IMG/VR virus record: IMGVR_UViG_3300031759_001473
Span: 1 to 23,899 of that record
Direction: 5' to 3' (one strand)
DNA from: a virus
Length of the DNA stretch: 23,899 nt
Every line of letters begins with the position of its first letter. Within the stretch, counting starts at the first letter, position 1. Made by a program: the position numbers and the translations under genes. This document shows, piece by piece, positions 1 through 18,382 of the stretch. Under the pieces are notes generated by a model. The model worked only from the letters and a program-made list of their open reading frames with translations. It was not told the DNA's origin and did no database searches.

Positions 1-3000
1 GTTAATAGCAACAGGTTGTGTGCCAGAATCACTACCATTTATTGATATATTACCCCATCTACGATTGTAACTCCCAGTTACATTACCTAATGTAACTAAT
101 TGTAGATTACTTGATATTGCAATAATTGTAGCGTTGCCTGTGGCATTTGCCTGAGTAACGTAATTACCAACACTAGCAGATACATTGCCACTTAAAGTTA
201 ATATTGCAGAACTATAGACATTTGATGTTGCCTGATATGCCTGCCCATTATAACTTACAATAGAACTATTTGCTATAGTAATATTTGGTTGCCATACGAT
301 AACATTGCTGGAATATGTTGTGCGATCAAATACCAGTGTGGTGTTTATATTTCGTACTGTGTTATAGCTCTGATTTACAAACTGAGTATATGTACTTGTT
401 GATGTAACTGTGGTATTTAAATTTGCAAAGTCACTGAAAATATATTGGTTGCTTGCAAAGGTACCATTAACATCAATTAAGGTTATAATATTTCCGGTAC
501 TTGCGGTTTGCACAGTACCATAAGCACCTGTATTTGGTTGAGTAATGATATTACCTACATACACAGTAACATTTGTATTAGCAGTCAATGTAGTTGTTGG
601 TAGGCTTTCAATATAATATTTGTTCTTTAATACTGTATAACCCGCAGCACCAGTACCAGTTCCGTTAATTAGAATCTGTGGTTGGCTAGTATACCCGTGT
701 CCTGGATCAATAACTTCAAAGCCACTTATAGTATTATTAGTATAATTTACTGTGGCTATAATACTTGCTCCGGTACCGCCCCCGCCAGAAACTGTAACTA
801 CTGGTGGGCTAGTGTATCCAGATATTGTATAATTTGATGTTGTAATCGATACATTCGATGCTAGATTACTACCGTTACGATAGATATAAGTATTTCCTGA
901 ATAAGTGTTTGATGCAAATGTTCCGGTAATATTTGTTAAATGTATTACCGAATCTGCTATAGTTGAAGCATAGACAGTACCGGTTGCGCCGCTAATTGGT
1001 TGAGTTATCGTGTCTCCGGCAATTGCAGTTACGTTATTAAACAACGATAAAGTTGTCACTAATACATTGGCCGTAATTCCAGGATTTGTTAGAATTACTT
1101 TACTAATACCGTATGTGTGGTTATTATACCATTGATTATACTGTGGTAATGTACTTAGATTAGTTCCATCAGAGCTCAATGTTCCATTTGGACTACGATA
1201 TGCGTATGCATTTGCAGATGTTCCGGACTCGATATTGATATAAGTCGCAGGAATATCAAAATCTGTAGTGTCGCCATAGTACTCATCAGTACCTGCATAA
1301 TCTATTAGATATTCTCGGATACTGGTTCTATAAGGCTTTACCTCATTAATATAATTCTCATAATAATTTTGGTTATCAGGAATATAATTTGGTGGCTGAT
1401 TCAATTTTCTTAGTTGATGGAAGATGCTAATGAAACTTGTCTTAAATACCCAATCAACTGATGGTTGTTCTGTTAGGATATAATTAATCATAACAAAGAA
1501 TAACTCATTGAAATTTACCTGCAGATTATCAATAAAAATATTGTTTTGTATCGCATTAAAGATAATACGTATTTCATTTGTTGCAACATTTGAAGTGTAT
1601 AACTTGCTGCTTAGTTGTATGGTACCATTTTGTATGCCCACTAGGCTTTGTGTAGAATCTGTATTTACTCGATAAATTACAAATTGATTGTTACCATTAT
1701 TCAATACTTTGATTGTGTCCCCGACGGTTAAAGTCAGTGCAGATACATCAGTAACTGTGTTTACTACATGCGTAGGTAATACCGTAGAATCATATGAAGA
1801 ATCATACCAATCCGCAAAACTCCAATAGAATGGAGTATAATAGCGTTGTATTTGTGTTGCTATCCAGGTATTTGCAATTAAAACATAAGTTACCCATAAC
1901 CCATTTTCAGTTTCATCATTCAATACCAATACAGTATAGCCCATTGGTTTTGTAGATTTATCTATATACGATAATTCTGCATGGGTATCTACTTGTAAAT
2001 CATATGTTGTAGATGCTGGTAATGGGGCAGACTCATATAACGGTGTAATATTATATTCTTCCACAATTGGATTTTGAATTAATATTCCGTTAACATATTC
2101 TACAAAATTCTTTAAAGCTGTTAATCTATTGACAAACAATGTTTGATTTGGGTTTACTCCCAAACCAATACTAGTCTGCGGAGATAGGCCTGCATTCGGG
2201 ACTGCGGCACCATTGGCATCTATTCCGCTTAGGCTATCAACCATCTTGTTAATGATTCTAGTAGGAATTATACTACCGCCGTTACCTTCTTGGACTAATT
2301 GATATTCACTGTGTAGAATATTTGTATTCTTTAAGGTATCATAATCAGCATGAAGTGTAGTAGTGTTTCCAGTCAAATAATCACTGACCCCGTACAAACT
2401 GATAGTATCGCCACGCACTACTGCTGCATAAGGAATACTCTGAGCTTGTGGATTCTCTATCAAACTTGCAATTGTTGCTACAGTATTTTTATGAGTAGAT
2501 TTAATATCTAAACTAGTTTTTCCAGAAACCCAATAATAGTACTTGCTTGTTACTAATTTTGTAACAGGATTAATTTTACTTTCGACTACATAAGCACTAT
2601 TGTCCGGATATAATGGTGTTCCAGAGCCAGTATATGCGCTGGGAGGCATATCGCTTTCAACCCATTCGCATACTTGAATCTTACTTCCCGGGAATGTGCG
2701 TCCCCAATTATTTGTACGGTAAGATAAATCTCCTCGCTCATAATCTAAATAACGAACAGAATCAATATTCCACCAAGTCTGCGTCACTTGCTCAGGTCCC
2801 CAATGGAAATCTAGACTGTTTGCTAAATTAGGTGTACTGTCCACCCCACCAACTGTATTATAAACCGCAGGATCATAGGCTGTAATATAATCCAAATCTT
2901 CAGCGGCAGCGCCAAGAATTTTACCCTTTGCTGGATCAATGTAATCCAAATTGGTTAATAAAGTGTTATTAGAATTATTATACAAGTATAATCTACTGAT

Positions 3001-6000
3001 ACTGTCTATATCAACTTTTGGTTGTTGACTTTCAACTATATCCCAACCCACATTGCCACTGAAATTATTATAGGTATAATAAGTTCCGGCATTACTAATC
3101 GGCACATATGCCCCACTTAGAGGATCTATTGTTAAACTATTACTATCTCCAGGAGCACCGACTAGCATAGTGTTACCATTCATAGCAACGCTATATCCAA
3201 ACTGATCGTTTGTGCTAAGACTGCTATTGCGCAGGCGCTGAACTAATACATACTGATCCAATGTTGATGTTGTAAACGATCCATTTACTAAACCATATAT
3301 GTATACTGTTCCTGAACCTGCAATAGTATCTGCAAAACTAGTTGATCCATAGTCAAATAGTGTGGCATCCGAATCAAAAGTCACTGCATTGTATGCTCCG
3401 CCACCAACAGCACCAATTACTAATGAAGAACTATCAGGGCTTGATATAATTTGGCTTCCGAATTGAGTCACTTGATCAGTTTCTGGATGCAATAATGATT
3501 GCACACTGGTATGTACTGATATACCTAAATTTGCCAACGCATTGCTAGGTCCAGAACTTAATATTAGTTTCTGATACGGCGTAGCAACATTACTATTAAT
3601 TGTCAATGCCCCATATCCTTGGGCAATTGCAGAAACACCAGGTATGCCCGCCGAATTAATAGTTGCTGCTAGATTAGCTACAGTATTTGATGTAAATGTA
3701 ATATCAAAACCGTTAATACGCATACTGTCACCAGGAACAATTATTGGGTTTGTGTTACTGGTAATGGTACCATAACTTGCTCCTTGATTTACAAATCTAT
3801 AAACAATTCCGCTATAGTAACCGGGTGCGCTATATCCAGGGCTTGCTACATACACATCTGCATTGTTTCCAGCAAGATATGTTGTCAATCCAAATGCTGC
3901 ACCACTAGTAGGTGTAGGCGCAGTTAATTGCTCCAACTGTTGAATGGTGTTTGTATCTATAGTGATCAAAGATCCAATAACAGGTGTTGTGCTAAAAGAA
4001 ACTGCGTTTGAATTTGTTGTAAAACCAGTAGTTATTACATTACCGTTTAATGTTACTTTTAAGGTACTTGTGTTTATAGGATATTGAGTAAGGTATACTG
4101 AACCGTTGGCAATAAATGATTCTACACTACGATCATATACATAAACTGCGCCGGCAGCGTTAATTCCATTTACTGATTGGTACGGAGATCCAATTACGAC
4201 TTGTCGACCATCCGTAGTGGTTTTAATTGTGTGTCCAAACTGTGCATAAGCACTGCTGCCAACGGTAATCGTGTTAGTGTAACTATAATAACTTGTGGTG
4301 TTTGCATGGTAAACATAAACATTACCTGCATTAGGTGCACTTACATATAACCAGGTACCATCGGCACTTGCACTTACACTTGATCCAAACGCATCACCGG
4401 TATTACTACCCCAAGGGCTTGTCAATGTTTGATTCCAAGGGAAACTTATATTACCGTCAAATTTATGAATATGCACTCGACCATAATCAGTAGAACCATT
4501 ACCAGGATCACCAACATATAATAAATTGCCCGCAGTGTCTAAACTACTACCAAATTTACTTACGTTATTTCCTGGATGAGCACCGATATTAGCAACCTGC
4601 GTGAACGTGTAGTTGTTTGATACGTTTGCAACAAAGGCAATTACATTGCCATTGCCAAGTGTTGGTATTCCGGCCACTGCGAATGTTCCGCTGGTATTGA
4701 TAGCCACCACTTTACCAAAACCACCATTACCAACATAAGTATTTGCGGTTAGCTTCATGCTTGGATTTAAGAAACTTACATTGCCGACCCAAGGAGTTGA
4801 TTTATTGTAAACTGCCCATCCGCCAGTTATATCATCATTATCAACCCAAAGTTTGTCATTGTCCAACCATCCCTGTGGCGGGGTTATACTATTTAAATCT
4901 GTAGGTGCTTTAATTCTAGAACTTTGTAGATGGAATATAGATCCAGATCCAGTGATTTTCATTGCAGATTTTAGTTGATCGCCACGTTGACCATAGAATA
5001 CTACATTAAAATTATATGGATCAGTTACCGAATAAACTTGATAAAATCCATCTATTCTTACATCAAAGCCTTTGATTAAAACTAAATCGCCATAAACAAA
5101 ACTGTGTTGGCTATTAGTTGCCACAGTACCTATATTATCAACGCTATAACTTACATTAGTCACGCTTAAGTTAGTTTCTGTAACTCGATATACATTCCAA
5201 TTATTTGTTGCATCTTTAGCGCACCAAATTGTAGTCCCAATACCCATTGATTGGATATTAGCATTTAGTTGTGCGTAATATCCAGTGTCAAATATCGTAG
5301 TTGACACATCGTTTATATCTACATAGCCTGCAGTCTGTATGTCATTTTTATAATTACTGGTATTTGATCTGTTCAAATATATATTTGGCTGGAATCCAGA
5401 GCTTGCTATATATACGTTACTTGGATATATGCCAACTATATTGTTACTGCTTGTGGTGGCATTATTAGCTAATAATGTAAATGTAAACGGATCTCCGTTA
5501 AACGTGCTTTCGGTCAATACAACTTCAACATATTGATTATTGTTTAACGCACCGTATTCACCAACACGCATTGCCCATTCTTCATACAAACTTATATTAC
5601 TACTGATTCCGTTAAAACCTGCTGCAGTAAATGCTGTAATAGCGTTCTTTGTACCTTTTTCTCGGATAAAGCCTTGATAAAACTTTGCCTGTGTGACTTC
5701 ATCAATACCAAAGTTTGTTAAATAATCGCGTGGTTGGAATCCAATGGTGCTATCACTATACAAGTGGAAATCACCCAATGTTTCTGGGTTGTCAATATCA
5801 TTAAATCTATTAAACTTCTCGGCATTGTAACTAAAGTTTGGTAACAGTCCTGTCTTTAATTCTGAACTTGTCAATTGCGCCCAATAATTGGGGTTGAATG
5901 TAGTAGAGCCAACCACATCTTGAATTGCCGTGTATTTGTTACTCTTATAGCTGACCAAACTGCCCATGGCATAATCAGTGCCCTGTTGCCAAGCATCAAC

Positions 6001-9000
6001 GCTGGTGCTATTAAACATAAATCCAGGAGGATTCATTGCCCCGGTCCATGAGCCTGTTTTCTTACCAACAAGTTTAAGTCTGTACTGTCTATTACCTAGT
6101 TCCGGAACGTATATAATATCGTTAAAGACATCAATGTTATCAAAAATTATTACATGTTCGTATTCAACAATGTCCAATTTCACTAAACTTAAAGTTTGAC
6201 CGCTATTGGCAGTCACAGTAAACGTGTTACCATTTACAGTACTGGCCCTTGTAACTGACATTTGGTTATACTTGACAAAATTGTAATTTGTATCAAGAAT
6301 TCTACTTTGATTTGGTTGATTCTGTATTTTATCCACTACTCCAGAAGTGGTAGTTAAATTTAGTTTATTCAATATCGGACTTAATACTAGAACACTGCCC
6401 GCAGTCCATCCTTGTTGAGCCCATGTTAAAAATTCTTTTATACTTAATAAGAAATCTCGTTGTACTCCTAGATCAGGATCGACATCAGTTAATTGTATTC
6501 CAATTCCTCGCAAATATCGTTGATAACTTACTAAAAAATCAACTACCTGTTGGCGATTGGCAAATTCAAATCCATATGGTACTGCTACTTTGTACTTTTG
6601 ATAATCGTTGTAAACTACTCCAGCATCATTTAATACTGAAATAGTATAGGAATTATTATTTGCTAGACTTGGGATTATAGTAAAATATGGTGAGTCGAAA
6701 TCAAATCCGCTTACAGTAAATCCGCTGGCAGTTTTTTCAATCACAACTCCACTATATGTGATGGTATTCGTTGGGGTAGATTTATATAACTCAATCGTAT
6801 AACTCTCGTTAGGTATCACTACCCCGTTGTTTGTACTTGTTGGGCTACTTTGTTCTGCGACTACTTCAATAAAACTTTGATCAGTATACGCTGCCATCTT
6901 GTAGGCTAATTGTACTGTCACATTATCTAAATATTCGTATAGCTTTGTTCCGGGATCAATTCCTTGGTTACGTAAGTATTCTGCTATCCAGTTAACATAT
7001 CCTGCGGCTCTATAAGTAGTTGTTCCGTTTGATGTCCCGTTAACAGTAATTGCTGCTGGAGAGATACGTTGAAGCGAATCACTTAGAACGTATTGATTTA
7101 ACTTGGTATTTTTATAATAGCGGCCAATATCTATTAGACTACCGAAATAAAATGCTGGATGACTTAGTGCCAATGCCTGTTGCATTGCAAAGGCAAAATC
7201 ACTGCTACGACGCCATACTGTTTCGACAGGGCCGCAATCACCAATTTTAAAAGTACCGCTGGCATTACTGTTACTAGCACTTTTTACTGCGAAATCGTTA
7301 GGTGGGCGTAATGCGCCGGTATCATCTACAGGAATTAAATTTAATAAATCAGGGCGCACAAAACGTGCATCTGTATATGAATCACCGTTATTCCAAACAT
7401 AGCCTGCAGCTAGATCATTCCATAATACTAAATTACCGCCAGTATACGGTGCCGGACCATAACGGGTTTCCCACCATGATGGTTGTTCAGTAAAGCCCAG
7501 CATCTCCCAAGGATTTGTGTGTGGACGATCAGTATCATAAAAATACTTAAATATACCACGCCAATAGCCTAACAATGGTTCCCCGTCAATTGAGTCTACT
7601 AATTTATTGTAGTTCCAAGTAAAAGCATTGCCATTTACAAAATAACTATTAGTAATATAATCAACTCTATTACCACCAACCCATTGTAAAAAACTATCGG
7701 TTAATAGCTGGGTGAACTCTTGATTACTATAATCACTATCCCTAAACTTTCCGGGCATATAATCATAGATGTCAAATACATTTTTTGTGTAATCAACTTT
7801 AATATTATTGTAGATGCGTTTTTCAAACTCTAATAATAACTGATCACGGTAATCGCCCCAAGCAGGCGTAATACTACCATCATGACCCTGAATTACATTA
7901 ATTGGGTTTTGATATGTTGTATCTAAATAGATACTTGGTGTAAATTTAGGATACAACCCCAACTTGGTTGGTGTTTCTGGAATATAATTACCATCGGTAT
8001 TTGAATATTCGTTTATAGTAATTACGTCACCGACTGTCAGCGGAGCTGTTATTGTAACTCCCGAACGGGTAGCATCAAATGTATAATCTTGTCCCTTGAC
8101 CAATTGAACGTTATTTTGATAAACTAGCACAGCATTGTTGCTTAGAGTAGTGTCACTAAAAATATTCGATATTTCATAGTCTACTATCTCAGTACTTAAT
8201 ACTGTGTATGTTATGGTATTTTTAATGCTACCGTATGGTACCATATCGCTATAGTACCAAGCAAAACTTTTATTTTTTACTGCATTAATTTGTAATAATA
8301 ATGTGTCAAGTAATACTGGAATATTACTAAAATCTAATCCTGTAGTTCTAGTACTTAATTCTATAATTTTATTTTTAATTTTGCTATATTCATAGCGAGC
8401 CAAATCTAAACTTTTTATAAAATTTGTATCTGAATCGACTAAAAATAACTCGCTATACATCACTGGGCTTGCATGTTGCAATATACTTCCGCCCTGTGCT
8501 TTGATCTGCACATCACGCAGATTACTAACTCCTGGAACTACCCCACTGATTTGGTTGCTATTACCCACCATTGTTGTTAAATGGTTGCGCAATTGCCCTA
8601 ATGTTAGAGTTGAAAAATTAGCATTGGCACTGTTAAAATCCAAATTCTTTGGGATTTCGTAATAACCCTGTTGGCTTATTTGACTACTATTATAAATTAA
8701 TATATCAATTTGATCACCAGCAACCAGCGATGAATCTGTTATATGTGCGTAACTAAGTACCCCGGTAGGTGTTACAATCGAGTAATTCTTAGATTCTATA
8801 CTGTTAATGTATACTCTAAAGTAGGGGGTTGATGCCTCAGTAGATGCCGGAATATCAATCTTAAAATACGGATTATTACCGTCATATATTCCGCTTATAA
8901 TTTGAAACTGTTTAGACTTTTCTGTATTAGTAGTCCAAGTATTTCTTAAATTATAATCAGTTAGACTTGTATTTTGTTGTAGTGTACCAACATTGTTGAT

Positions 9001-11289
9001 TGCAACGCCAACTACATCTAATTGTGTACTATTATCATGATAATCAAACGTATCAGTATCAAAGTTATTAGTGAATTGAATATCACCAATTTGGTTAAAG
9101 TTTCTATAACTTAATGGGAAACCCAGCACTGGGTCAGATGCGCCTGATCCCTGCTTATATGAAAATATTGGAGTCCCGACAAATGTACTATTTGAATATG
9201 TGCTTAGACTTACATCATTACTATCAATAACATCAAACATTGGTGCTTGATTTATGCCAGTTTTTTGTTGCCCTTTGTGCCAATTTGCGCCATCGTACCA
9301 GTATTCAATTCCTTTGTTAGGTCCCTGTAATACTACCAAATTATTATTTGGGCTTATTACATAATCAGTTGCTGGTACCAAATTAATCACATTTGCAGAG
9401 AGTGCTGGAATGTAAACGATATTAATTTCAAAAATTTGATTTCTTACTGTAGGATCAAAGTCATTGGCAAATATAACTCGCATACCCTGCGTTAGAGCAG
9501 GAGTTGCAGCATAACTTACACCATTAACAGTTGCTGCCGGAATGTTGTAACCAGCAGTTTGCAGTTCTATTGTGGTTCGGGCATCTGTAATTGTAAAATC
9601 TATTAGATCCACAGGTGCTTTGGCTACTCGACCAAAGTTATATAATTGTAAATCTGCTTCAAATTCAATAATAGGACGGGTCGCACGTAGAGCTTGGTTT
9701 AATATTGGTGTGGTATTATTGTATTGTGCTGTTGCATTTATAATATCAATATGAAACCATCTATTACTTCTTGTCCAAGGATTTAAATCACTACTGGCTC
9801 GATTAATTGTAAGATAGTCTAAATTAGCGATGCCATTAGCCGCGTATGCTTCGGGAGTTTGAAAAGTTGATACGTCTAATAATTTTATAGAGTCACCAAC
9901 ACCTTCTATATAATATGTATTACCTGCATAACTACTTGGAACTGCACTAGAGTCAAACGTTACTTTTAATCCGTTACTGAATATAACACCGTTTGGACTT
10001 TGATAATTTTTTGCTCCAATGATATCTGTGTCGACATTTACTGTAGTATCAGTTACCACTAACAATTCTAGTTGGCCTGCATAAGATGCATCGACACCAT
10101 CTTGGTAATAAATTACTGGTAATGGTGCAGTAATGTCTGGCATTGGTTTAAACACATTATAGATTAGATAATCAGAATCTAAATAATAACTATACTCTGC
10201 ACGACTAACGCCAGATTTAACAAAAACTTTCTGCCCCGCAGTGATTGTAAATGCCTGAGCTAACGGATTTAATGTTACTATAGGATCAGCATCATTGCTT
10301 AATGTTATTTGCCAAGCATTTAATCTATTTGCAACAGGAACAATCTGTGAATTAGCTGTCCAAAATATAGCATCAAGATCTCCGTTAACAAAAATTAACG
10401 ATTTTAAATTTATTTGGTTGGATGAGCTTACCCCATCAAATCCGCCCTCACTAGTAGCAACTATAGTGCTTAATCGTTGCCCTTGCACTTGACTATAATG
10501 AAGTTGCGTACTTAAATCAACAACACCAGCTAGGTGCATACGTACATAATTGTCTTGTGCAGTGGGTTGTGGTACGTTAAAAGTTATAGTGCCAACGTCA
10601 GCACCATTATTAGTTACACCGAGTACATTTCTACTGCTTAGATTTGTCTGATTTAATTTTAGACCAGATACCCCAGGACTTGACTGTATCCAGAATGGAT
10701 ATCCGGGTTGGTTCACAATGAATGTGTACGTGCCACCATAGGCTAATCTAATTGTGGGATTATCAACACCGTTGGCAGTCGAGAACATGTAGCTACCAGT
10801 ATTTGGATTACGTGTTACTGTGAATGTTTCTTGGGTAGGAACTTGTGCACCAAATACTGAAATAGCATCGGGGCCATCTTCTAACCAATAATATTGTGCA
10901 AAGTTCACAAATTTGTCAAAATCAAACAAGCCATCAAAACTATAAGATTCATTAGCAAACATTCTAGTTTGATTATCAGTCAATCCGCCGTAATGATTAA
11001 CTTGATTAATCAAATCAATATAACTACTAAAAAAATCAATGTTGTCGGTAGTTTTGTTTTTAACAACAACACTAGGCTCAAGTTGATAGTTTTGTCTTAA
11101 AGTCGTAGGTTCGGGAACATAATTATCTGTGCTTTTAAATGTAGGAGCAAACTTACGGCCAATGTAACCATTAATATTTCTCAAATCAGGTTGAGTTACT
11201 AATTGGTCCAGTGTGGCATTTAAAAACTTTTGATTTGTGTCTGTTCTAAAAACTTCTGGTAGGAAGTTGCTGGTTTTTATTTGTGCCAT
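1..11289 (-). CDS. Giant baseplate-associated virion protein, partial (C-terminus beyond window)
   Basis: An ATG at 11289 opens a frame that I read codon by codon to position 1 without meeting a stop, giving at least 3,763 residues; the 3' end lies outside the window. The start lies one base after the gp6 stop (TAA-T-ATG), so the two genes are probably translationally coupled. The protein is rich in Asn, Thr, Ser and Tyr and mostly beta-like, unlike a helical tape measure. Visible blocks are an N-terminal head (MAQIKTSNFLPEVF), PWTRSNRWFH at 504-513, YWYDG...NQAP at 663-683, HDGS at about 1136, DRPH..PWEM at 1254-1263, GDCGPVETVWRRS near 1370, a carbohydrate-binding-like module at 1764-1805, a seven-fold FG-GAP propeller at about 2185-2745, EVKPYRTSIREYL at 3316-3328, and short beta repeats after about 3420. 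From memory, similar giant structural proteins occur in marine T4-like phages. It sits where T4 has gene 7; a role as outer wedge or host-contact protein is inferred. Confidence 0.85.
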   Translation of the reverse strand, partial: MAQIKTSNFLPEVFRTDTNQKFLNATLDQLVTQPDLRNINGYIGRKFAPTFKSTDNYVPEPTTLRQNYQLEPSVVVKNKTTDNIDFFSSYIDLINQVNHYGGLTDNQTRMFANESYSFDGLFDFDKFVNFAQYYWLEDGPDAISVFGAQVPTQETFTVTRNPNTGSYMFSTANGVDNPTIRLAYGGTYTFIVNQPGYPFWIQSSPGVSGLKLNQTNLSSRNVLGVTNNGADVGTITFNVPQPTAQDNYVRMHLAGVVDLSTQLHYSQVQGQRLSTIVATSEGGFDGVSSSNQINLKSLIFVNGDLDAIFWTANSQIVPVANRLNAWQITLSNDADPIVTLNPLAQAFTITAGQKVFVKSGVSRAEYSYYLDSDYLIYNVFKPMPDITAPLPVIYYQDGVDASYAGQLELLVVTDTTVNVDTDIIGAKNYQSPNGVIFSNGLKVTFDSSAVPSSYAGNTYYIEGVGDSIKLLDVSTFQTPEAYAANGIANLDYLTINRASSDLNPWTRSNRWFHIDIINATAQYNNTTPILNQALRATRPIIEFEADLQLYNFGRVAKAPVDLIDFTITDARTTIELQTAGYNIPAATVNGVSYAATPALTQGMRVIFANDFDPTVRNQIFEINIVYIPALSANVINLVPATDYVISPNNNLVVLQGPNKGIEYWYDGANWHKGQQKTGINQAPMFDVIDSNDVSLSTYSNSTFVGTPIFSYKQGSGASDPVLGFPLSYRNFNQIGDIQFTNNFDTDTFDYHDNSTQLDVVGVAINNVGTLQQNTSLTDYNLRNTWTTNTEKSKQFQIISGIYDGNNPYFKIDIPASTEASTPYFRVYINSIESKNYSIVTPTGVLSYAHITDSSLVAGDQIDILIYNSSQISQQGYYEIPKNLDFNSANANFSTLTLGQLRNHLTTMVGNSNQISGVVPGVSNLRDVQIKAQGGSILQHASPVMYSELFLVDSDTNFIKSLDLARYEYSKIKNKIIELSTRTTGLDFSNIPVLLDTLLLQINAVKNKSFAWYYSDMVPYGSIKNTITYTVLSTEIVDYEISNIFSDTTLSNNAVLVYQNNVQLVKGQDYTFDATRSGVTITAPLTVGDVITINEYSNTDGNYIPETPTKLGLYPKFTPSIYLDTTYQNPINVIQGHDGSITPAWGDYRDQLLLEFEKRIYNNIKVDYTKNVFDIYDYMPGKFRDSDYSNQEFTQLLTDSFLQWVGGNRVDYITNSYFVNGNAFTWNYNKLVDSIDGEPLLGYWRGIFKYFYDTDRPHTNPWEMLGFTEQPSWWETRYGPAPYTGGNLVLWNDLAAGYVWNNGDSYTDARFVRPDLLNLIPVDDTGALRPPNDFAVKSASNSNASGTFKIGDCGPVETVWRRSSDFAFAMQQALALSHPAFYFGSLIDIGRYYKNTKLNQYVLSDSLQRISPAAITVNGTSNGTTTYRAAGYVNWIAEYLRNQGIDPGTKLYEYLDNVTVQLAYKMAAYTDQSFIEVVAEQSSPTSTNNGVVIPNESYTIELYKSTPTNTITYSGVVIEKTASGFTVSGFDFDSPYFTIIPSLANNNSYTISVLNDAGVVYNDYQKYKVAVPYGFEFANRQQVVDFLVSYQRYLRGIGIQLTDVDPDLGVQRDFLLSIKEFLTWAQQGWTAGSVLVLSPILNKLNLTTTSGVVDKIQNQPNQSRILDTNYNFVKYNQMSVTRASTVNGNTFTVTANSGQTLSLVKLDIVEYEHVIIFDNIDVFNDIIYVPELGNRQYRLKLVGKKTGSWTGAMNPPGFMFNSTSVDAWQQGTDYAMGSLVSYKSNKYTAIQDVVGSTTFNPNYWAQLTSSELKTGLLPNFSYNAEKFNRFNDIDNPETLGDFHLYSDSTIGFQPRDYLTNFGIDEVTQAKFYQGFIREKGTKNAITAFTAAGFNGISSNISLYEEWAMRVGEYGALNNNQYVEVVLTESTFNGDPFTFTLLANNATTSSNNIVGIYPSNVYIASSGFQPNIYLNRSNTSNYKNDIQTAGYVDINDVSTTIFDTGYYAQLNANIQSMGIGTTIWCAKDATNNWNVYRVTETNLSVTNVSYSVDNIGTVATNSQHSFVYGDLVLIKGFDVRIDGFYQVYSVTDPYNFNVVFYGQRGDQLKSAMKITGSGSIFHLQSSRIKAPTDLNSITPPQGWLDNDKLWVDNDDITGGWAVYNKSTPWVGNVSFLNPSMKLTANTYVGNGGFGKVVAINTSGTFAVAGIPTLGNGNVIAFVANVSNNYTFTQVANIGAHPGNNVSKFGSSLDTAGNLLYVGDPGNGSTDYGRVHIHKFDGNISFPWNQTLTSPWGSNTGDAFGSSVSASADGTWLYVSAPNAGNVYVYHANTTSYYSYTNTITVGSSAYAQFGHTIKTTTDGRQVVIGSPYQSVNGINAAGAVYVYDRSVESFIANGSVYLTQYPINTSTLKVTLNGNVITTGFTTNSNAVSFSTTPVIGSLITIDTNTIQQLEQLTAPTPTSGAAFGLTTYLAGNNADVYVASPGYSAPGYYSGIVYRFVNQGASYGTITSNTNPIIVPGDSMRINGFDITFTSNTVANLAATINSAGIPGVSAIAQGYGALTINSNVATPYQKLILSSGPSNALANLGISVHTSVQSLLHPETDQVTQFGSQIISSPDSSSLVIGAVGGGAYNAVTFDSDATLFDYGSTSFADTIAGSGTVYIYGLVNGSFTTSTLDQYVLVQRLRNSSLSTNDQFGYSVAMNGNTMLVGAPGDSNSLTIDPLSGAYVPISNAGTYYTYNNFSGNVGWDIVESQQPKVDIDSISRLYLYNNSNNTLLTNLDYIDPAKGKILGAAAEDLDYITAYDPAVYNTVGGVDSTPNLANSLDFHWGPEQVTQTWWNIDSVRYLDYERGDLSYRTNNWGRTFPGSKIQVCEWVESDMPPSAYTGSGTPLYPDNSAYVVESKINPVTKLVTSKYYYWVSGKTSLDIKSTHKNTVATIASLIENPQAQSIPYAAVVRGDTISLYGVSDYLTGNTTTLHADYDTLKNTNILHSEYQLVQEGNGGSIIPTRIINKMVDSLSGIDANGAAVPNAGLSPQTSIGLGVNPNQTLFVNRLTALKNFVEYVNGILIQNPIVEEYNITPLYESAPLPASTTYDLQVDTHAELSYIDKSTKPMGYTVLVLNDETENGLWVTYVLIANTWIATQIQRYYTPFYWSFADWYDSSYDSTVLPTHVVNTVTDVSALTLTVGDTIKVLNNGNNQFVIYRVNTDSTQSLVGIQNGTIQLSSKLYTSNVATNEIRIIFNAIQNNIFIDNLQVNFNELFFVMINYILTEQPSVDWVFKTSFISIFHQLRKLNQPPNYIPDNQNYYENYINEVKPYRTSIREYLIDYAGTDEYYGDTTDFDIPATYINIESGTSANAYAYRSPNGTLSSDGTNLSTLPQYNQWYNNHTYGISKVILTNPGITANVLVTTLSLFNNVTAIAGDTITQPISGATGTVYASTIADSVIHLTNITGTFASNTYSGNTYIYRNGSNLASNVSITTSNYTISGYTSPPVVTVSGGGGTGASIIATVNYTNNTISGFEVIDPGHGYTSQPQILINGTGTGAAGYTVLKNKYYIESLPTTTLTANTNVTVYVGNIITQPNTGAYGTVQTASTGNIITLIDVNGTFASNQYIFSDFANLNTTVTSTSTYTQFVNQSYNTVRNINTTLVFDRTTYSSNVIVWQPNITIANSSIVSYNGQAYQATSNVYSSAILTLSGNVSASVGNYVTQANATGNATIIAISSNLQLVTLGNVTGSYNRRWGNISINGSDSGTQPVAIN
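61..1040 (-). repeat. Short beta-strand repeats in the distal part of the giant protein
   Basis: Three copies of a roughly 36-residue module are encoded at 910-1020 (AGDTITQPISGATGTV...ITGTFAS), 451-558 (VGNIITQPNTGAYGTV...VNGTFAS) and 67-171 (VGNYVTQANATGNATI...VTGSY). The shared pattern is GD/GN-x-I/V-TQ, a Gly-rich turn, then a beta hairpin ending in N-V/I-x-G-T/S-F/Y. Between the first two lie two copies of a GYTS-x-P motif followed by a Gly/Thr-rich turn, at 766-825 and 646-708. The copies have diverged, so this is a protein-level repeat and not a recent DNA duplication. Such modules are common in phage fibre and adhesin proteins. More copies may lie beyond the left edge. Confidence 0.6.
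3061..4740 (-). repeat. Seven FG-GAP repeats: predicted beta-propeller inside the giant protein
   Basis: Seven FG motifs, each followed by a short beta segment, a Gly-rich turn and usually a V/I-Y-x-Y/F strand, start at residues 2191, 2246, 2301, 2351, 2466, 2610 and 2697. Examples are FGSSVSASADGTWLYVSAP, FGHTIKTTTDGRQVVIGSP and FGYSVAMNGNTMLVGAPGD. Copies 1-4 are spaced 50-55 residues apart; copies 4-5 and 5-6 are separated by extra inserts. This is the pattern of FG-GAP blades (integrin alpha type, FG-GAP_2-like), and seven is the usual number for a closed propeller. A binding role at the baseplate surface is inferred. Confidence 0.75.
5876..6000 (-). other. Carbohydrate-binding-like module (CBM5/12 type) in the giant protein
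   Basis: Residues 1764-1805 read AWQQGTDYAMGSLVSYKSNK, then YTAI, and close with F-N-P-N-Y-W-A-Q-L. The order AW-x(4-5)-Y-x-x-G-x-x-V-x-Y-x-x-x-x-Y-x-A and a closing W matches the short chitin/cellulose-binding modules of CBM5/12 type. A second, weaker copy of the same pattern (VWQPNITIANSSIVSYNGQA) lies at about 187-300. Sugar binding is inferred from the pattern alone. Confidence 0.45.
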
Positions 11290-11290
11290 A

Positions 11291-14200
11291 TTAAATTACG
11301 ATTCCTAATCCTGCGAGGGTTTGATTAATTTGTGCCGCGGTAATTGCACTTATGATTTGTACATTATTTGCGGTTGCTGCACTTACCATGATTTCATTTG
11401 GGTTTGCATTAATTTGTAGCAGACTTCCAAAGGCAATATTTGTATTGCTGGGTACTATGATAATGCTTGCTACATTTGGTGCTAATACATTATGCAAGTA
11501 TGTACTTAATTCACTAAAATAGAAAGTATCACCGAAGCTCCAATTGCTAGGATCAAAAAATTGATTAATCGCTGCAATAGTACTACTTATTATATCAGTA
11601 TCACTTACGTTTACATTAGGATTTTTAACAATCTTAAATGTTGCCTGCAGATTACTATCTGCTTTATCGCCAAATAAAGGTTTGTAAACTCCCGAATTAT
11701 AAACAATGGTGTCACTTAAAGCCTTATAATTTTCAAGACTAGTTGAGCCAGTGCCGTATAAAGTTTTTAAATCATCATTTGACGGTGGGGTTGGCTCTGT
11801 TAAAGTTCCAGTAGTATCTTGAATCCAAGCAAGATAATCTTGACTGTATTGGGTAGTTAGAATATACAAGTCCATAATATTATTGGGGCTTGGGTCTATT
11901 CTACGATCATTAGGACTACTATGTCTATATTGGAAATAGAGTTGTTGTCTGCCTGTTTCAGCAATATAGTTTGTTAGCGGGCTACTTAATATTCTTGTAG
12001 TTGAGCTTCCGTTTGTAGTCACCGTCAATTGATAAAAATTGTTTTCACTAGTTGCGTAAAATATTTGCCCGTTTACATATAATGTTAGCGCTGCATTGAT
12101 CGCACTTTGTGTGGCATAGCTTGTCACTACTGTGGTATTATCTACAGGTATAGTTGTGATAAAGTTATCAGTGTCTGTTACCTCTGTGAAGAATACATAT
12201 TTTTTGTTTGGATTTACTGTGGGTGCAACAATATTAGTAAACAAATCTGGATTATCTGGAGTACCACTGTTATTTGTGTCCGGAAATGTCAATAAAATTT
12301 CTGTATTATTGACATAACCATCAAGACCTATTACAGAATCGTGTATATACCAAGTACTGTCTTGTCCGATTGGAGTTGAGCTATCAGCCTGGGTATTTGT
12401 TTTTAATACTGTAATTTGATCAGTGATTGTTAGTCCAGTTTTACTGTCAAACACTTTAACTTCTGGATCAAAATAAAATCTTGTTTCGCCAACACTTTGG
12501 AATACGTATTGAAGCCCTCGATGAACTATATTATAGTTTATGCCGTTGTATGTAAGTGCCACAAGCCAACTTGAATCTAATCCAGTACCAGCGGTACTAC
12601 CTTGATTAGTAAGACTGAATGCACCGAGATTTAAATCTTGTGGTAATATAATTTGCCAAGATTGTTTTGATACATTATAACTTAATCCAATGTTTTGATA
12701 ACTTTGCAGTAATCTAATCATCTGTGATGTAAATGATGATCCAGGTAAATCATTTTTAAACACTGGAATAATTGTATCAACTACTGCACCTGTGGGGATA
12801 TTAACGCTTAATTGTATTGGGAACCCGGCATTTGAGCTTACTACGGACGCCCATAGGTATGTATTCTCATTTGGGTATGTACTTGTGCCTGTTTGGATAG
12901 TATTCTGCGCATCAAAAAATTTACCAGCGCCTGCGTTAAATCTTATCAATGAACCAGTTGTGATATATTGTAAATTACTACTTACCCCAAATCCAATTTG
13001 ATAAGGTGTTACATAACTTGTTGTTGGATAAAAATATCCTGTACTACTATTACTTGATGCGCTAGATTGTCCCCAATAGGTTGATGTTGTTGGTGTATAT
13101 CTTGGAAAGTTTGCATAGTAGTAATGCAACATGTCTTTACTAGCTATCAATGGTTGTACAGTATTATAGATTACATTATATAAATCTGTGGGTGTATTAA
13201 AGCTAAAAGTATTGCTAGTTGTAGGAGTTTGGGTATATATTATTCCGTCATCACAGAATATATTTGTGCTGGAGTATTTGCCAGTGACATCTAATACATC
13301 TAAATATCTACTAATTCCGCTACTGCTACGATTAACTGCTTTTACTTTTAAAATACTACCAAAGTTTGTGTACGGGAATAGATTGTAATCTTCTCCGGTA
13401 ATCATACGATTTTGTGTGTAGTATTGTGCCGGTGCTTTTGTGCGAATATCGTCTATACTTTCACGAGTCTGACTGTTATTAACTGTGTAATATAGACTTG
13501 CGCTAATTGTAAGAGTTTCCACTTTATTGTTACGACTTACGTAATTTAAGGGAATAGTAATATTCTGCATTTCATCGGGTGTTACTTTATATTGCAGTCC
13601 GTTACTAGTTCTATAGTAAAGTCTATATACACCCTGCGGAATATTTGCAAAACTGCCATCACCAAATACTAAATCAATTTGATCATTAGTCTTTGAGTTT
13701 ATTTGATATAGGTTTCTATTTGTGCTTTGATTATAGATGATGTTTATACCGGCGATTGCAGGCACTGCACTCCATTCTGTAGTAGGATTGCCTTTTACAT
13801 CTAATTCGTATAGCCATACGTCTGTGTTATTAATATTATTATAGTTTACATTTACAACACGATTAGGTAAACTTTGTTGCAAATTAAAATCTTGTGTGGC
13901 CAAAGATCCCTGTTTAAAATAAACAAAAAATCCAGTATTATTACTACCGTTTCCTAAATTATCATTGCGATAAAGAATATTAAATTTGCCCGAAGGAGTA
14001 GGATTAGGTTCGTATATGTAATTTTGATTTACTGTAGTAGCACTAACTGCTTCAAAATTAACTTGGTTACCCTCTACTAGAGCGTTAAAACTATACTTGG
14101 GCAACACTCCGGGAACTAGATTAATACTGTACTCATCAGTCTGAATCCCATTAATTGATTGGCTTGCCCCTGGTTTTCCGATTGCTTGATTGGTGATGAT

Positions 14201-14689
14201 TGACGCATTTAAAATCGTAGTCATCTGCTCTTGCCAATCAGGGTTGGCGGTGTCATTCCACGAAATTAGTAAATTGCTTAGGTTTAGCCCGTTACTGTCA
14301 AATAGATTTTCGGTAGTTTTTACACTATCTATTTTTAAAAACCCGCTGGCAGTGATATTACGTTTGGGATTATAGCTGATTAATCGAGCAAGTTTTAGAA
14401 TACTATCACGACGTTCTGCAGTGTCAAAGAAGTTTTCGCGGGCATTCATATCGCCACGGAAAGCCAAACTTTGACCTAAAAATGCGATTAAATCTATTAG
14501 AGCAACGTATTCACTACTCTCTGTAAAGTCATTAAAATCTTCAGGGTAGTATGTACGCAAGTAGTCAATCATGGTCTTGCGTAGAGTTTCAAAGTCGTAG
14601 CTTTGGAAATCAGCTTGTTTGAATGTTTGGTAAACCTGTGTCCAATCCTGATTTACTAATAAATTTGTCTGACGAGTAGTTATTGACAT
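11291..14689 (-). CDS. gp6: Baseplate wedge protein gp6 (baseplate J-like), enlarged
   Basis: The product has 1,132 residues, against about 660 for T4 gp6. In T4, gp6 dimers form the ring that joins the wedges around the hub and control baseplate opening. The N-terminal 120 residues (YVALIDLIAFLGQSLAFRGD, ARENFFDTAERRDS) are typical of gp6. A baseplate-J core follows at about 335-460, with an FGDG motif at 342-345 and the segment SIDDIRTKAPAQYYTQNRMI. The last 110 residues (FFDPSNWSFGDTFYFSELS) also match the gp6 C-terminus. The extra length lies in the middle, roughly 480-1020, and is beta-rich. The gene lies between gp25 and the giant gene, as in the T4 order 25-6-7. The ATG at 14689 follows a 52-base gap holding a late-promoter-like box; the stop is one base from the next ATG. 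Confidence 0.92.
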   Translation of the reverse strand: MSITTRQTNLLVNQDWTQVYQTFKQADFQSYDFETLRKTMIDYLRTYYPEDFNDFTESSEYVALIDLIAFLGQSLAFRGDMNARENFFDTAERRDSILKLARLISYNPKRNITASGFLKIDSVKTTENLFDSNGLNLSNLLISWNDTANPDWQEQMTTILNASIITNQAIGKPGASQSINGIQTDEYSINLVPGVLPKYSFNALVEGNQVNFEAVSATTVNQNYIYEPNPTPSGKFNILYRNDNLGNGSNNTGFFVYFKQGSLATQDFNLQQSLPNRVVNVNYNNINNTDVWLYELDVKGNPTTEWSAVPAIAGINIIYNQSTNRNLYQINSKTNDQIDLVFGDGSFANIPQGVYRLYYRTSNGLQYKVTPDEMQNITIPLNYVSRNNKVETLTISASLYYTVNNSQTRESIDDIRTKAPAQYYTQNRMITGEDYNLFPYTNFGSILKVKAVNRSSSGISRYLDVLDVTGKYSSTNIFCDDGIIYTQTPTTSNTFSFNTPTDLYNVIYNTVQPLIASKDMLHYYYANFPRYTPTTSTYWGQSSASSNSSTGYFYPTTSYVTPYQIGFGVSSNLQYITTGSLIRFNAGAGKFFDAQNTIQTGTSTYPNENTYLWASVVSSNAGFPIQLSVNIPTGAVVDTIIPVFKNDLPGSSFTSQMIRLLQSYQNIGLSYNVSKQSWQIILPQDLNLGAFSLTNQGSTAGTGLDSSWLVALTYNGINYNIVHRGLQYVFQSVGETRFYFDPEVKVFDSKTGLTITDQITVLKTNTQADSSTPIGQDSTWYIHDSVIGLDGYVNNTEILLTFPDTNNSGTPDNPDLFTNIVAPTVNPNKKYVFFTEVTDTDNFITTIPVDNTTVVTSYATQSAINAALTLYVNGQIFYATSENNFYQLTVTTNGSSTTRILSSPLTNYIAETGRQQLYFQYRHSSPNDRRIDPSPNNIMDLYILTTQYSQDYLAWIQDTTGTLTEPTPPSNDDLKTLYGTGSTSLENYKALSDTIVYNSGVYKPLFGDKADSNLQATFKIVKNPNVNVSDTDIISSTIAAINQFFDPSNWSFGDTFYFSELSTYLHNVLAPNVASIIIVPSNTNIAFGSLLQINANPNEIMVSAATANNVQIISAITAAQINQTLAGLGIVI

Positions 14690-14719: not shown

Positions 14720-14743
14720 AAAAAATAAACTACGTAGTTTATT
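14720..14743 (-). terminator. Palindrome plus T run at the gp25 stop: possible weak terminator or RNA-end hairpin
   Basis: Positions 14724-14743 form a perfect 20-base palindrome centred on TACGTA. It overlaps the gp25 stop codon at 14742-14744. In minus-strand RNA it could fold as an 8-bp stem with an ACGU loop, followed by a run of U (14725-14720). The layout is that of an intrinsic terminator, but the stem has only two G-C pairs, so full termination is doubtful. It may instead mark an RNA processing or protein-binding site. Confidence 0.35.
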
Positions 14744-15128
14744 AGTAAGGGCCACCAGCAGTTAGACTGCTCGAATTCGCATCAAATTGTAGGCTAAGAA
14801 CTGTAGATTGATTTGTAGGGATAAAGACTAAATCAAGTTCGATTTGAATACCATAATCCTGGCCTGTGATTGTTATATTTTGGAGTCCGATTCGTGGATC
14901 ATATGCCACAATATTTTTAACGTCATCAATTATTAGCTGATTCGCATGTTCATCCAATGGCTCAAACAACATGCTCCATATAATGCTACCAAAATTTGGT
15001 TGCATCAGTTTCTCGCCTTTTCGTACGTTGAAGTGATTAATCAAATCCTGTTTGACTAAATTGACATCAGTCGCACGAAATTTTTTACTGCGATTTACTG
15101 TGCTAAACCCTTTGTATAATGTTACCAT
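14742..15128 (-). CDS. gp25: Baseplate wedge protein gp25
   Basis: The product has 128 residues, close to T4 gp25 (132). The family (GPW/gp25) forms the inner baseplate wedge and contacts the sheath, where it primes sheath assembly. Visible family features are VNLVKQDLINHFNVRKGEKL at about 23-42, then MQPNFGSIIWSMLFEPLDEH, which is the usual P-x-F-G-x-x-I-x-x-L-F-E-P core, and a closing beta sheet (DYGIQIELDLVFIP). The ATG at 15128 lies eight bases after the gp5 stop. Only a distant GGAG precedes it, so translation may depend on the upstream gene. Order and size agree with T4. Confidence 0.95.
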   Translation of the reverse strand: MVTLYKGFSTVNRSKKFRATDVNLVKQDLINHFNVRKGEKLMQPNFGSIIWSMLFEPLDEHANQLIIDDVKNIVAYDPRIGLQNITITGQDYGIQIELDLVFIPTNQSTVLSLQFDANSSSLTAGGPY

Positions 15129-15136
15129 AATAGTAT

Positions 15137-18100
15137 TTATTGCTCCGAGTTAGCCAATTGTATGTGTACTGCATCAGGCTTGCTGAATGTGCCGCCCCAA
15201 CGCAATCCGTATTGTGCAAGGTCGACAGTTCTAGCGATTAGCGGGCATTGACTACTATCAATTGCCACACCACTGTTGTGTGGGCTGCCTGTACCTCCCG
15301 CACTAGCTGGTTTCGCAGGGGTTGTTATGCCCCCGGCAGTTGGATTATTTGGTCCACCACCAGCTGCTAGCCATTTCTGATAGATTGCTTCTTGATCAGC
15401 TGGACTACGGTATGCACTGGTAATAGTTATTTTTGCTCCGGTACTGGTTTTAAAATCCTGTGCCATAGTTAATATTGCATTTTTAAATGTACCATTAAGT
15501 TGATCAAAATTACTTCTAGTTCCGGTACCATTTCCTTGGAATGTAAACACATCATCAGGATTAATCCCTGTTGTATTATCACCACCAAGACTCGCAACTC
15601 CGGTGGTAGTTGCAGCACCGCCTGCAGACAACACATCAATGGCGTATCTACCCTGATTATAATAGTCGGAACCATTGCGCCCGTATGCATCTTCCAATAA
15701 ACCCTGCTTGCGCCATTCTAATGCAGAATCTACACTTCTAAATTGATGTGCAACAAATAGCATGCCTGCTGCCATACAAATATCATCACTAGTGGTTATT
15801 CCACCATTACTCAGTAATGCGGTATAGTTGTCAGTGAACTCATTAAATTGTATAGTGTCTTGAACATTAGGGTTACTAAAGAAGTCATCTTGGCTTTGTA
15901 TACCGTCTTTACCAGTCCAACTTTCACTGTTACTCAGAGTCGATGTGCCGTATTGGTTTATAGCATCTGGCTTAATGTATCCGGCATCGGCTAGGTATTG
16001 TGCATCAACTTGATACTTGCCAATCCTAGTAGAATCATCACTGACCATACTGTAATTAAATTGACTTTCAAAATATCCTAATTCAGCCATTAGTGCTTTT
16101 ACCTGTTGTTGGGTAAACTTGGGCGAACTAGTACCAATACCTCCTGGAGGGTTAAAAGTTGTTGATTTCTTTAGGAACTCTGCAGGACAAGTATTGCCAA
16201 CAACTTGCGTTCCGGCGGCATTAGTGATACCATCGTCTCCAGTTTGTGCTGGACTATTTCCCGATTCTTCGGTGCGTACAGGATTACCTGATCCGTCAGT
16301 TACAGTAGATCCGTTACTTGTAGTTAATACTCCGCCTGATTGTTGGCCAGCATTTGCCAATGCCTGTTTTACTGTAGCCTGATGCGTTGCAATCTGCGTT
16401 GCCACCATATCTACAGTAATATACCCAACGGCATGTCCTGGATCAAATGCAGGATTTGCATTATATTGTGGACTGCCACCAGGCCATATCACGAAACTTC
16501 CGGGCTTGCCCACTGCTGCAGGCCATAAAATAGTCAAGTAAATATCCACTAGGCGTGGACTTGGTGCTTTGCCATTTAGATTATTAAATTGAAAATACTT
16601 AGTAACGTATTGACATTGTGTGGCTCGATCCATTGCCCGCAATGCATCAGTAGTAGTACCAATGCTGGTTGCAGCTGCTTTACCGAATTGGATAAGTCCA
16701 GTATAGCCCAAGCTATTAGTAATTGCCGGATCCATTGTACCACCGGTTTCTAAATGCATACATGCCAACATGTCTATATAACTTAGGTTTAATGTATTTG
16801 CAGATAGTTGCACGGCGTTAATAAAATCTGTATCTGTGGTCCAAGGAGTCGGTCTTCCTTTATCAAGATTATTACCATTAGGTGGAGGTAACGTATTATT
16901 AATCGCGCCACCGCCCATCTTAGGAGTACATACACTACTGCCAACTTCTTTAGTCAACGGAGCCGGCGTTCCAGTTCTTACCCAAGGCTCATGACTTGGT
17001 AGTATAGTAACTACGCTATCAACTGCCTGTGGTACACTACTCCAAAGTTTAGTTAAACTACTGTCGTATGTAGTGTCTGCAAGTTTATTCTTGGGAATGA
17101 CTGGGCATGAAATACTATTTCCGCCACTGCCACCGTTTAGATCAAGAGTACTACCATCAATCTTCATTGCGGACGCGGAACTCATGTTGAGTTTGCCATC
17201 ACTGCTGACAATAACTTGACCACCGCCCATGCTCATCTTGGCACCGTATATCAGCGTACTGTCTGCACCACCAATTTTAATCTGTCCGCTGGTCATAGTT
17301 GTTGCCGTTGCGCTATCCATATTGATACTGCCGCCGGCCTGCATGTTGATATCATTGTCGGCATGTAGATTTAGTGTACCTTCGGTGCGTATACTTAAAT
17401 CACCACCTGTATAAACTTTAATACCAGTATCATCTATCTCTACCCAGCTGGTACCATTCTTATGAGCAATGTACATTGTACTTTGATCATCGTTCATTAG
17501 TATTTGATGTCCACCAGCTGTTCGTAATCTTATTAATTGATCAACACCATTCGCATCACCATCGTCCATGACAAAAGTGTGCCCACCTTTACGACTGGGT
17601 ACTGCAAATTGATCCGGAGGTATTGTGCCACTGGCTACTTTAGTTGCATAGTCTGGATCATCAGCAGGATCTTTTGTCAATGCTCGACCTGGAGTACTGA
17701 TACCAAAAACATGGCTCGGGGTTTCTCTTTGACTGCTACTACTTATTGCCCCACGAACTTTATCTCGATCCAACCCCTGCTGGAATAATATATTTGCTTG
17801 GAATTCATGTATTGGTTTGGCATTATTATAAAATACGCTGTCGAAATAGTTTTCAACATTCTCGTTAAACTCTGCCACAGGCAAATATTGCGGGGGTACA
17901 TGATTTTCAGGAAGAATACTGGCTTTAATGTCAGCACTGGCACTGTTACGATCAACAAAATTGCCCGCGGCCATTGCCGGTACCATCCATTGACTTATTC
18001 CGGGGCTAATACAAGCAAACCAATAACCCCTACCAGGTTGTCCGTTTACGAATGTACATAATACTTGACTACCTATATCAGGGGGAGTCATCCACATACC

Positions 18101-18382
18101 GTATGTGTGGTGTACGTCGGCAAATTTATTATTAATATCGCCTGCTTGTGCAAAGGTAGTCCCAAAATAAGGACTAGCATAATTTACCTTACGCCAATTA
18201 TGTTCACTATTTTCATCTCCCCCAAAGTCAGGAATCCACACACGCAGTCTACCGTTTCTTGCAGGTGCAAGATTGTCCTTGACTATGCCTACATAAGTTC
18301 CGGTGTCGTTTTTAACCCCGGCAACCGATTCTCGGTCAAAGTTCTTTGCTATTTTTTTGCCTACTACGCCATCTTGTGCCAT
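15137..18382 (-). CDS. gp5: gp5-type baseplate spike with two lysozyme-like domains and an M15-type peptidase domain
   Basis: The product has 1,081 residues, against 575 for T4 gp5, the cell-puncturing spike. Residues about 25-135 form the gp5/VgrG OB-fold (YVGIVKDNLAPARNGRLRVW; WFACISPG). Residues about 262-425 are the triple-stranded beta-helix region, with repeats such as GGHQILMNDDQSTMYI and GTLNLHADNDINMQAGGSIN. A transglycosylase-like domain follows at about 510-680, with CMHLETGG and GYTGLIQF; the candidate catalytic Glu is E545. A second lysozyme-like domain spans about 740-920, with YFESQFNYS (candidate E772) and GKYQ at 788-791. Residues about 955-1081 carry SPHNSGVAID (1033-1042) and VHIQ (1072-1075), the S-x-H-x-x-G-x-A-x-D and late-His signature of M15/VanY zinc peptidases. 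In T4 the single lysozyme lies between OB-fold and helix; here all three enzymes follow the helix. Activity is inferred from motifs. Confidence 0.9.
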   Translation of the reverse strand: MAQDGVVGKKIAKNFDRESVAGVKNDTGTYVGIVKDNLAPARNGRLRVWIPDFGGDENSEHNWRKVNYASPYFGTTFAQAGDINNKFADVHHTYGMWMTPPDIGSQVLCTFVNGQPGRGYWFACISPGISQWMVPAMAAGNFVDRNSASADIKASILPENHVPPQYLPVAEFNENVENYFDSVFYNNAKPIHEFQANILFQQGLDRDKVRGAISSSSQRETPSHVFGISTPGRALTKDPADDPDYATKVASGTIPPDQFAVPSRKGGHTFVMDDGDANGVDQLIRLRTAGGHQILMNDDQSTMYIAHKNGTSWVEIDDTGIKVYTGGDLSIRTEGTLNLHADNDINMQAGGSINMDSATATTMTSGQIKIGGADSTLIYGAKMSMGGGQVIVSSDGKLNMSSASAMKIDGSTLDLNGGSGGNSISCPVIPKNKLADTTYDSSLTKLWSSVPQAVDSVVTILPSHEPWVRTGTPAPLTKEVGSSVCTPKMGGGAINNTLPPPNGNNLDKGRPTPWTTDTDFINAVQLSANTLNLSYIDMLACMHLETGGTMDPAITNSLGYTGLIQFGKAAATSIGTTTDALRAMDRATQCQYVTKYFQFNNLNGKAPSPRLVDIYLTILWPAAVGKPGSFVIWPGGSPQYNANPAFDPGHAVGYITVDMVATQIATHQATVKQALANAGQQSGGVLTTSNGSTVTDGSGNPVRTEESGNSPAQTGDDGITNAAGTQVVGNTCPAEFLKKSTTFNPPGGIGTSSPKFTQQQVKALMAELGYFESQFNYSMVSDDSTRIGKYQVDAQYLADAGYIKPDAINQYGTSTLSNSESWTGKDGIQSQDDFFSNPNVQDTIQFNEFTDNYTALLSNGGITTSDDICMAAGMLFVAHQFRSVDSALEWRKQGLLEDAYGRNGSDYYNQGRYAIDVLSAGGAATTTGVASLGGDNTTGINPDDVFTFQGNGTGTRSNFDQLNGTFKNAILTMAQDFKTSTGAKITITSAYRSPADQEAIYQKWLAAGGGPNNPTAGGITTPAKPASAGGTGSPHNSGVAIDSSQCPLIARTVDLAQYGLRWGGTFSKPDAVHIQLANSEQ

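Follow-up and report, generated by a model that had tools for sequence, protein, structure and literature searches.

A predicted seven-bladed, integrin-like FG-GAP_2 propeller in a hairpin of a giant virion protein encoded in the baseplate operon of a large T4-like phage

The propeller of integrin alpha chains is built from seven four-stranded blades, in which strand A is preceded by an FG dipeptide and strand B leads into a GAP-like turn; the A-B loops of its last blades carry calcium sites of the form D-x-[DN]-x-[DN]-G. In four-stranded propellers, the A-B and C-D loops lie on a common face, and the I domain of integrins, placed between blades 2 and 3, occupies a D-A loop of the opposite face. 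In phages, a propeller reportedly forms the platform of the phi11 receptor-binding protein in the virion. Propellers have likewise been described in the T7 and SU10 nozzles and in the phAss-1 virion, and the phAss-1 propeller is reported to show no detectable sequence similarity to those of T7 and SU10 (PMC10607447). For FG-GAP repeats in particular, a study of the prasinovirus MntV1 proposes a role in attachment and suggests that this may be the first virus confirmed to carry them (PMC11467894).

The Pfam repeat family FG-GAP_2 (PF14312) was also found in several isolated phages, in proteins other than the one described here, with six matches in S-TIM5, nine in C48C1, two in Atu_ph07 and 42 in Phosso, whereas it occurs nowhere in the records of PA5oct, SCTP-2, RaK2, Vibrio 2.275.O, GAP32 and XbC2. 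In cyanophage S-TIM5, the repeats make up almost the whole of a 407-aa annotated virion protein (YP_007006169; contig L139, 5851-7074; six matched repeats, 1.3e-79). Most of the Phosso matches fall into two ORFs of 3702 and 3182 aa at 48-69 kb of PV764938.1 (partly contig L140), which are apparently chains of several propellers, located near an S8 peptidase gene. Database entries already label some phage proteins “FG-GAP repeat.” Searches of the openly licensed full-text literature revealed no description of an FG-GAP propeller in a phage baseplate: those for FG-GAP with phage, bacteriophage or cyanophage returned no title on phage virion proteins (the cyanophage title concerned vesicles), and one for beta-propellers in jumbo-phage baseplates uncovered no such case either.

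The propeller described here is encoded in a 23,899-nt stretch of viral DNA (IMG/VR record IMGVR_UViG_3300031759_001473, here called the window). Positions 1-11289 of its minus strand carry a giant gene whose ORF (11289 to 1, 3763 aa) is open at the window edge. A second contig (L010) matches all 3763 residues exactly and yields 4201 aa from the same Met, as well as downstream genes that include tail-fibre-like proteins. The giant protein matches the virion structural protein profile phrog_10938 over four stretches (E 0, 1049.5 bits), a family that PHROGs classes as “head and packaging,” not baseplate, and the record of its PA5oct homologue carries an ESI-MS/MS note, i.e., detection by mass spectrometry. 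Upstream of it on the same strand lie genes for a gp6-like baseplate wedge protein (11291-14689; phrog_10646, 979.9 bits), a gp25-like baseplate wedge protein (14742-15128; PF04965, 6.2e-10, and phrog_43), a gp5-like hub/tail lysozyme with a C-terminal VanY-type domain (15137-18382; Pfam and PHROGs), a virion structural protein (18395-20977; phrog_11190), a gp53-like protein (20981-21289; phrog_7145, baseplate wedge subunit, the name being taken from its position and the Vibrio 2.275.O record) and a further virion structural protein (21289-22155; phrog_12050). In the hub protein, the terminal VanY-type carboxypeptidase domain matches at 1.1e-5 and a middle stretch matches hub/peptidase families. 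On the plus strand, and in the direction opposite to the baseplate genes, follows a late sigma factor gene (22269-23150; phrog_12791) whose product we take to be gp55-like, a name also used in the GAP32 record; it is adjoined by a homing-endonuclease-like gene (23221-23892, plus strand; phrog_314).

This gene order is that of cultured jumbo phages, which together with the gp25-, gp6-, gp53- and hub-like neighbors bears out the baseplate-operon setting that had been proposed for the locus. The phrog_10938 match, the mass-spectrometry note and the gene order lead to the conclusion that the giant protein is a virion protein encoded in the baseplate operon; the gene order also suggests that it is located in the baseplate itself. 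Homologous scaffolds are present in the phrog_10938 proteins of the jumbo myoviruses PA5oct, RaK2, GAP32, XbC2, Atu_ph07, Phosso, SCTP-2 and Vibrio 2.275.O, in which, as in the window, the gene directly follows the one in the gp6 position. In T4, the wedge protein encoded after gp6 is gp7. The position of the giant gene agrees with an identity as gp7, but sequence and fold searches gave it no support: profile searches of the PDB yielded no match at E <= 1 for the N-terminal part and a single chance match, none naming T4 gp7, for the scaffold downstream of the propeller. An AlphaFold2 (AF2) model of this downstream scaffold (pLDDT 79, pTM 0.49) had no Foldseek match at E <= 0.001, and its best VIA match was Geobacillus virus E2 ORF18 (Z 5.7 over 52 residues). 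Elsewhere in the giant protein, residues 1766-1803 (window 5881-5994, minus strand) match CBM_5_12 just below threshold (25.9 bits, cut-off 26.2), as do 10 of 33 outgroup regions, and the C-terminal part (window 1-1000, minus strand) contains, as judged by eye, stretches of the type YTSxPxVxVSGGGGTGA, which recur in the Atu_ph07 counterpart of the propeller slot.

The original prediction of a seven-bladed propeller was based on seven FG motifs, and all of them were found exactly where it had placed them in the giant minus-strand ORF, at residues 2191, 2246, 2301, 2351, 2466, 2610 and 2697 (window nt 4719 to 3199). Bare FG dipeptides are statistically weak, however, and their number is only mildly unusual: seven were observed in residues 2150-2760 compared with 2.7 expected, seven was reached in 277 of 20,000 shuffled versions of the region, and 199 of 3,000 shuffled whole proteins contained seven in some 611-aa stretch. 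The count by itself would be compatible with FG motifs spaced by chance in a beta-rich fibre protein that holds no propeller. We consider this explanation exceedingly improbable, as the FG-GAP_2 profile matches, the predicted fold with its integrin alignment and the seven blades kept in relatives are independent of the FG count and place the propeller above chance. FG-GAP_2 matched with 1e-15 and 58.1 bits in the whole protein and with 5.4e-19 and 68.6 bits in the region, above the curated cut-off of 23 bits; three stretches pass it alone, and the family was found in all eight members of the first alignment. The classical FG-GAP family (PF01839) has no match anywhere in the window, in contrast to FG-GAP_2.

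An AF2 model of the propeller, built from a 22-sequence alignment, reached a pLDDT of 77.9 and a pTM of 0.82, with low confidence for model residues 1-25, 484-504 and 594-613, the closing strand included. DSSP assigns seven groups of four strands, and each repeat has its FG immediately ahead of strand A and its GAP-like turn behind strand B, as in integrins. Foldseek gave its highest ranks to integrins, among which WD-type propellers were interspersed (best E 1.3e-8), and VIA-align, run over 968 of Foldseek's chains, ranked integrin alphaM first (7usl_A; Z 36.8, 2.7 A, 347 residues, model range 15-593), with alphaL (5e6r_A) at Z 36.2; integrin alpha chains make up the whole list of 50 PDB entries (Z 32.8-36.8). 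Among predicted viral structures, the top match (E 8.5e-31) came from an uncultured Caudovirales phage. Eukaryotic giant viruses contributed most of the matches that came next, and stand-alone proteins of phage Atu_ph07 and cyanophage S-TIM5 ranked further below. Profile match and predicted fold, the two tests set beforehand, both agree with the proposed seven-bladed integrin-like propeller. As modeled, residues ~2163-2740 (window 3070-4803, minus strand) form a closed seven-bladed FG-GAP_2 disc of the integrin alpha type, interrupted by inserted domains.

The likeness to integrins is structural. Integrin alpha chains share 17-20% identity with the window propeller, and no sequence similarity to integrins above noise was detected (integrin alpha-L, E 1.4; 0.32 with a profile). 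In contrast to integrins, the calcium motif D-x-[DN]-x-[DN]-G is absent from the window propeller, as it is from 103 of 107 relatives. The placement of inserted domains differs as well, since those of the window lie in C-D loops and the integrin I domain uses a D-A loop of the opposite face.

On the minus strand of the window, the model places blade 1 at 4582-4710 (model residues 44-86), blade 2 at 4420-4545 (99-140), blade 3 at 4264-4377 (155-192), blade 4 at 3925-4227 (205-305), blade 5 at 3490-3882 (320-450), blade 6 at 3232-3462 (460-536) and blade 7 at 3034-3189 (551-602), the last strand of blade 7 being of low confidence. Two domains interrupt the modeled disc, insert 1 in the C-D loop of blade 4 (nt 3970-4110) and insert 2 in that of blade 5 (nt 3514-3786). 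Neither has a convincing Pfam match. Insert 2 had by eye resembled a flagellin-IN-like domain, but no Pfam match was obtained for it, and Flagellin_IN matched one of 66 relatives at 0.0083.

In the aligned propeller slots of 77 dereplicated relatives, at least half of each blade is occupied in all 77, the one exception being blade 5 with 76 of 77. Recurrent extra domains in these slots cluster in the C-D loops of blades 2-5, insertion points present in fewer than four of the 77 members having been left out of the listing; in the C-D loop of blade 3, 51 of 77 relatives carry at least 25 extra residues after model residue 180. Because C-D loops share a face with A-B loops, this placement gathers the accessory domains on one face of the predicted disc. 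A dockerin-like stretch, its resemblance judged by eye, was seen in the blade 2 C-D loop in the slots of L036 and L038 (also L037): DINNSGTLSPLDA, DVNNSGTVSPLDA. Conservation differs little between the loop classes (AB 0.45, BC 0.49, CD 0.52, DA 0.48), and no ligand face could be named from face-wise loop conservation in the 77 slots.

The propeller region is flanked by the two arms of a hairpin. The incoming arm, WAVYNKSTPW (residues 2158-2167; window 4789-4818, minus strand), contains a W-x-V-Y anchor that is conserved in relatives with and without a propeller, and the returning arm is GWDIVESQQPKVD (window 3010-3048, minus strand). The junction reads W-x-V-Y inward and (R)xQ/E-x-x-V/I-D outward. 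In several outgroups, the hairpin is closed by a short turn, such as RWAVYYFNSGKWNLDYKEQDVID in SCTP-2 and IWVDNVNNLWTVFNYDGVDLTAFRQQTPLID in L142, where the window has ~570 aa; in RaK2 and GAP32, the W-x-V-Y hairpin motif is not clearly visible. BLASTP with the full protein against the eight jumbo-phage homologues shows a scaffold conserved as far as residue ~2047 and once more from 2749 onward, the exact ends varying by alignment. Between these conserved blocks the window has 690-820 residues, compared with just over 100 in GAP32, XbC2 and RaK2, 173 in Vibrio 2.275.O, 328 in PA5oct, 380 in SCTP-2 and ~1530 residues of other content in Atu_ph07 and Phosso. None of the eight jumbo-phage proteins checked has a propeller match, unlike the window. 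A LamG domain suspected by eye in the SCTP-2 slot had no Pfam match at E <= 5. Carrier slots without extra domains measure 391-440 aa, the size of seven 58-residue blades. By sequence comparison, the propeller is inserted in a hairpin loop of an otherwise conserved scaffold. The stand-alone S-TIM5 gene and the separate FG-GAP genes described for MntV1, a eukaryotic algal virus, differ from the window in this respect, where the propeller is embedded in a phage protein of ~4200 aa and bears large inserted domains (PMC11467894 for MntV1).

The distribution of the propeller was followed with a profile of the downstream scaffold, which found relatives in at least 581 of 600 candidate stretches of viral contigs. 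The best 80 of these 581 were taken, and two further scans centered on isolates contributed the best 80 of 296 and 40 of 40, so that percentages of carriers are not population estimates. FG-GAP_2 was detected by Pfam (E <= 0.01) in 66 of 66 dereplicated near-group slots (drawn from the best 80 of 581), in 25 of 29 slot regions of the sister set plus L255, and in none of 33 outgroup regions, seven isolates among them. These Pfam counts are the independent ones, because the propeller profile (A6) was trained on carriers; L106, one of the 66 Pfam-positive members, was nevertheless missed by the A2 profile. Removal of near-copies and of eight short or weak ORFs reduced 250 scaffold ORFs to the 134 rows of a quick IQ-TREE scaffold tree with SH-aLRT support only and a midpoint root. 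One group of 101 rows (support 99), which contains no isolate, takes in all 94 rows scoring at least 100 bits with the propeller profile, whereas none of the 33 rows outside reaches this score; three labels mapped on the tree need 10 changes, compared with 53.5 in shuffles. The propeller is near-fixed in this one environmental phage group and absent at that site from the outgroups sampled. We read this as a single gain, or very few gains, together with some loss or divergence, and take L255 as one loss or a misplacement on the tree. The slot of L255 looks nearly empty; upstream of it lies an esterase-like stretch, with a GDSL lipase match (L255:6655-8973, 1.3e-10), and L255 is the only member with both the GDS and the D-x-x-H motif of this lipase type. 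One scan of genome contigs, reaching close relatives only, revealed no cellular relatives of the propeller. In tblastn searches of phage records, the window propeller and that of L041 had no match, and a propeller without extra domains (L132) matched seven records weakly.

The original prediction had also suggested that the propeller is a head binding a host receptor or glycan, a role that is putative. In 15 close relatives, the mean pairwise identity of the propeller (0.605) is about that of most of the scaffold (0.61-0.68), with lower values for residues 2041-2162 (0.52) and the C-terminal part (0.52-0.565, 31-34% gaps), and no binding site, pocket, ligand, enzyme signature or catalytic motif was identified in the propeller. 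Among 88 members, the distances of propeller and scaffold correlate (Spearman 0.62) just as those of scaffold and upstream neighbor do (0.62). Together with the conservation in close relatives, this argues for inheritance with the scaffold rather than for a swapped, hypervariable tip; no trace was seen of the exchange of modules that a host-range domain would be expected to show. A fast-evolving host-range head is not supported among close relatives, although the larger distances are partly consistent with it: over the 88 members, the median identity of the propeller is 0.325 compared with 0.467 for the downstream scaffold, and this faster divergence points the other way.

The reading we favor, at about even confidence, is that the disc, plugged into a hairpin of a giant protein that large T4-like myoviruses encode in their baseplate operon, serves as an adhesion platform on the virion surface. 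In this model, the disc would stand off the scaffold on its own hairpin, its C-D face would present the accessory domains, and it would make an early, probably reversible contact with the host envelope or a surface glycan. A platform with a fairly constant ligand is likelier than the main, fast-changing determinant of host range. The fold, the insertion, the accessory distribution, the clustering of domains in C-D loops and the virion location count for this reading, and the lack of an identified ligand, of hypervariability and of module swapping, the “head and packaging” class and inserts without Pfam match count against it.

Its main and serious rival, which we hold to be somewhat less probable, is an internal docking platform for a tail fibre or a neighboring wedge that makes no direct contact with the host. 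Many propellers are protein-interaction discs, and the near-fixation of the propeller across the whole carrier group, its scaffold-like conservation in close relatives, its co-inheritance with the scaffold and the tail-fibre-like genes directly downstream would all suit such a role. However, the site holds either a short hairpin or different content in the outgroup scaffolds, so that the docking partner would need to be specific to the carrier group, and the highly variable extra domains of the C-D loops are better suited to an exposed face. Far less probable is a propeller enzyme of the sialidase, lactonase or lyase type trimming a host surface polymer. It is suggested by weak Pfam matches in relatives (Lactonase in 2 of 66, Kelch_3 in 1 of 66) and by one sister-set slot region that matches the endosialidase beta-barrel (PF12195, 3e-4), whereas the matches of the window propeller at E <= 1 include no catalytic family, and the integrin alpha chains that make up all 50 listed fold matches are non-enzymes.

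We tentatively propose, with less than even confidence, that a large branch of giant T4-like phages, uncultured so far, acquired an integrin-type propeller in one or very few events and may use it as a modular adhesion hub, with binding domains in its C-D loops, on a hairpin of the baseplate wedge. The host-contact parts of giant phages mostly lack annotation, and a candidate domain in a protein of ~4200 residues now has a structural name, an exact insertion point and a phylogenetic range. Scaffolds with and without the propeller provide a clean natural comparison for testing the role of the disc. FG-GAP propellers, described as perhaps new to viruses in the MntV1 report (PMC11467894), are by these predictions a standard component of one giant virion protein across a wide range of environmental phages.
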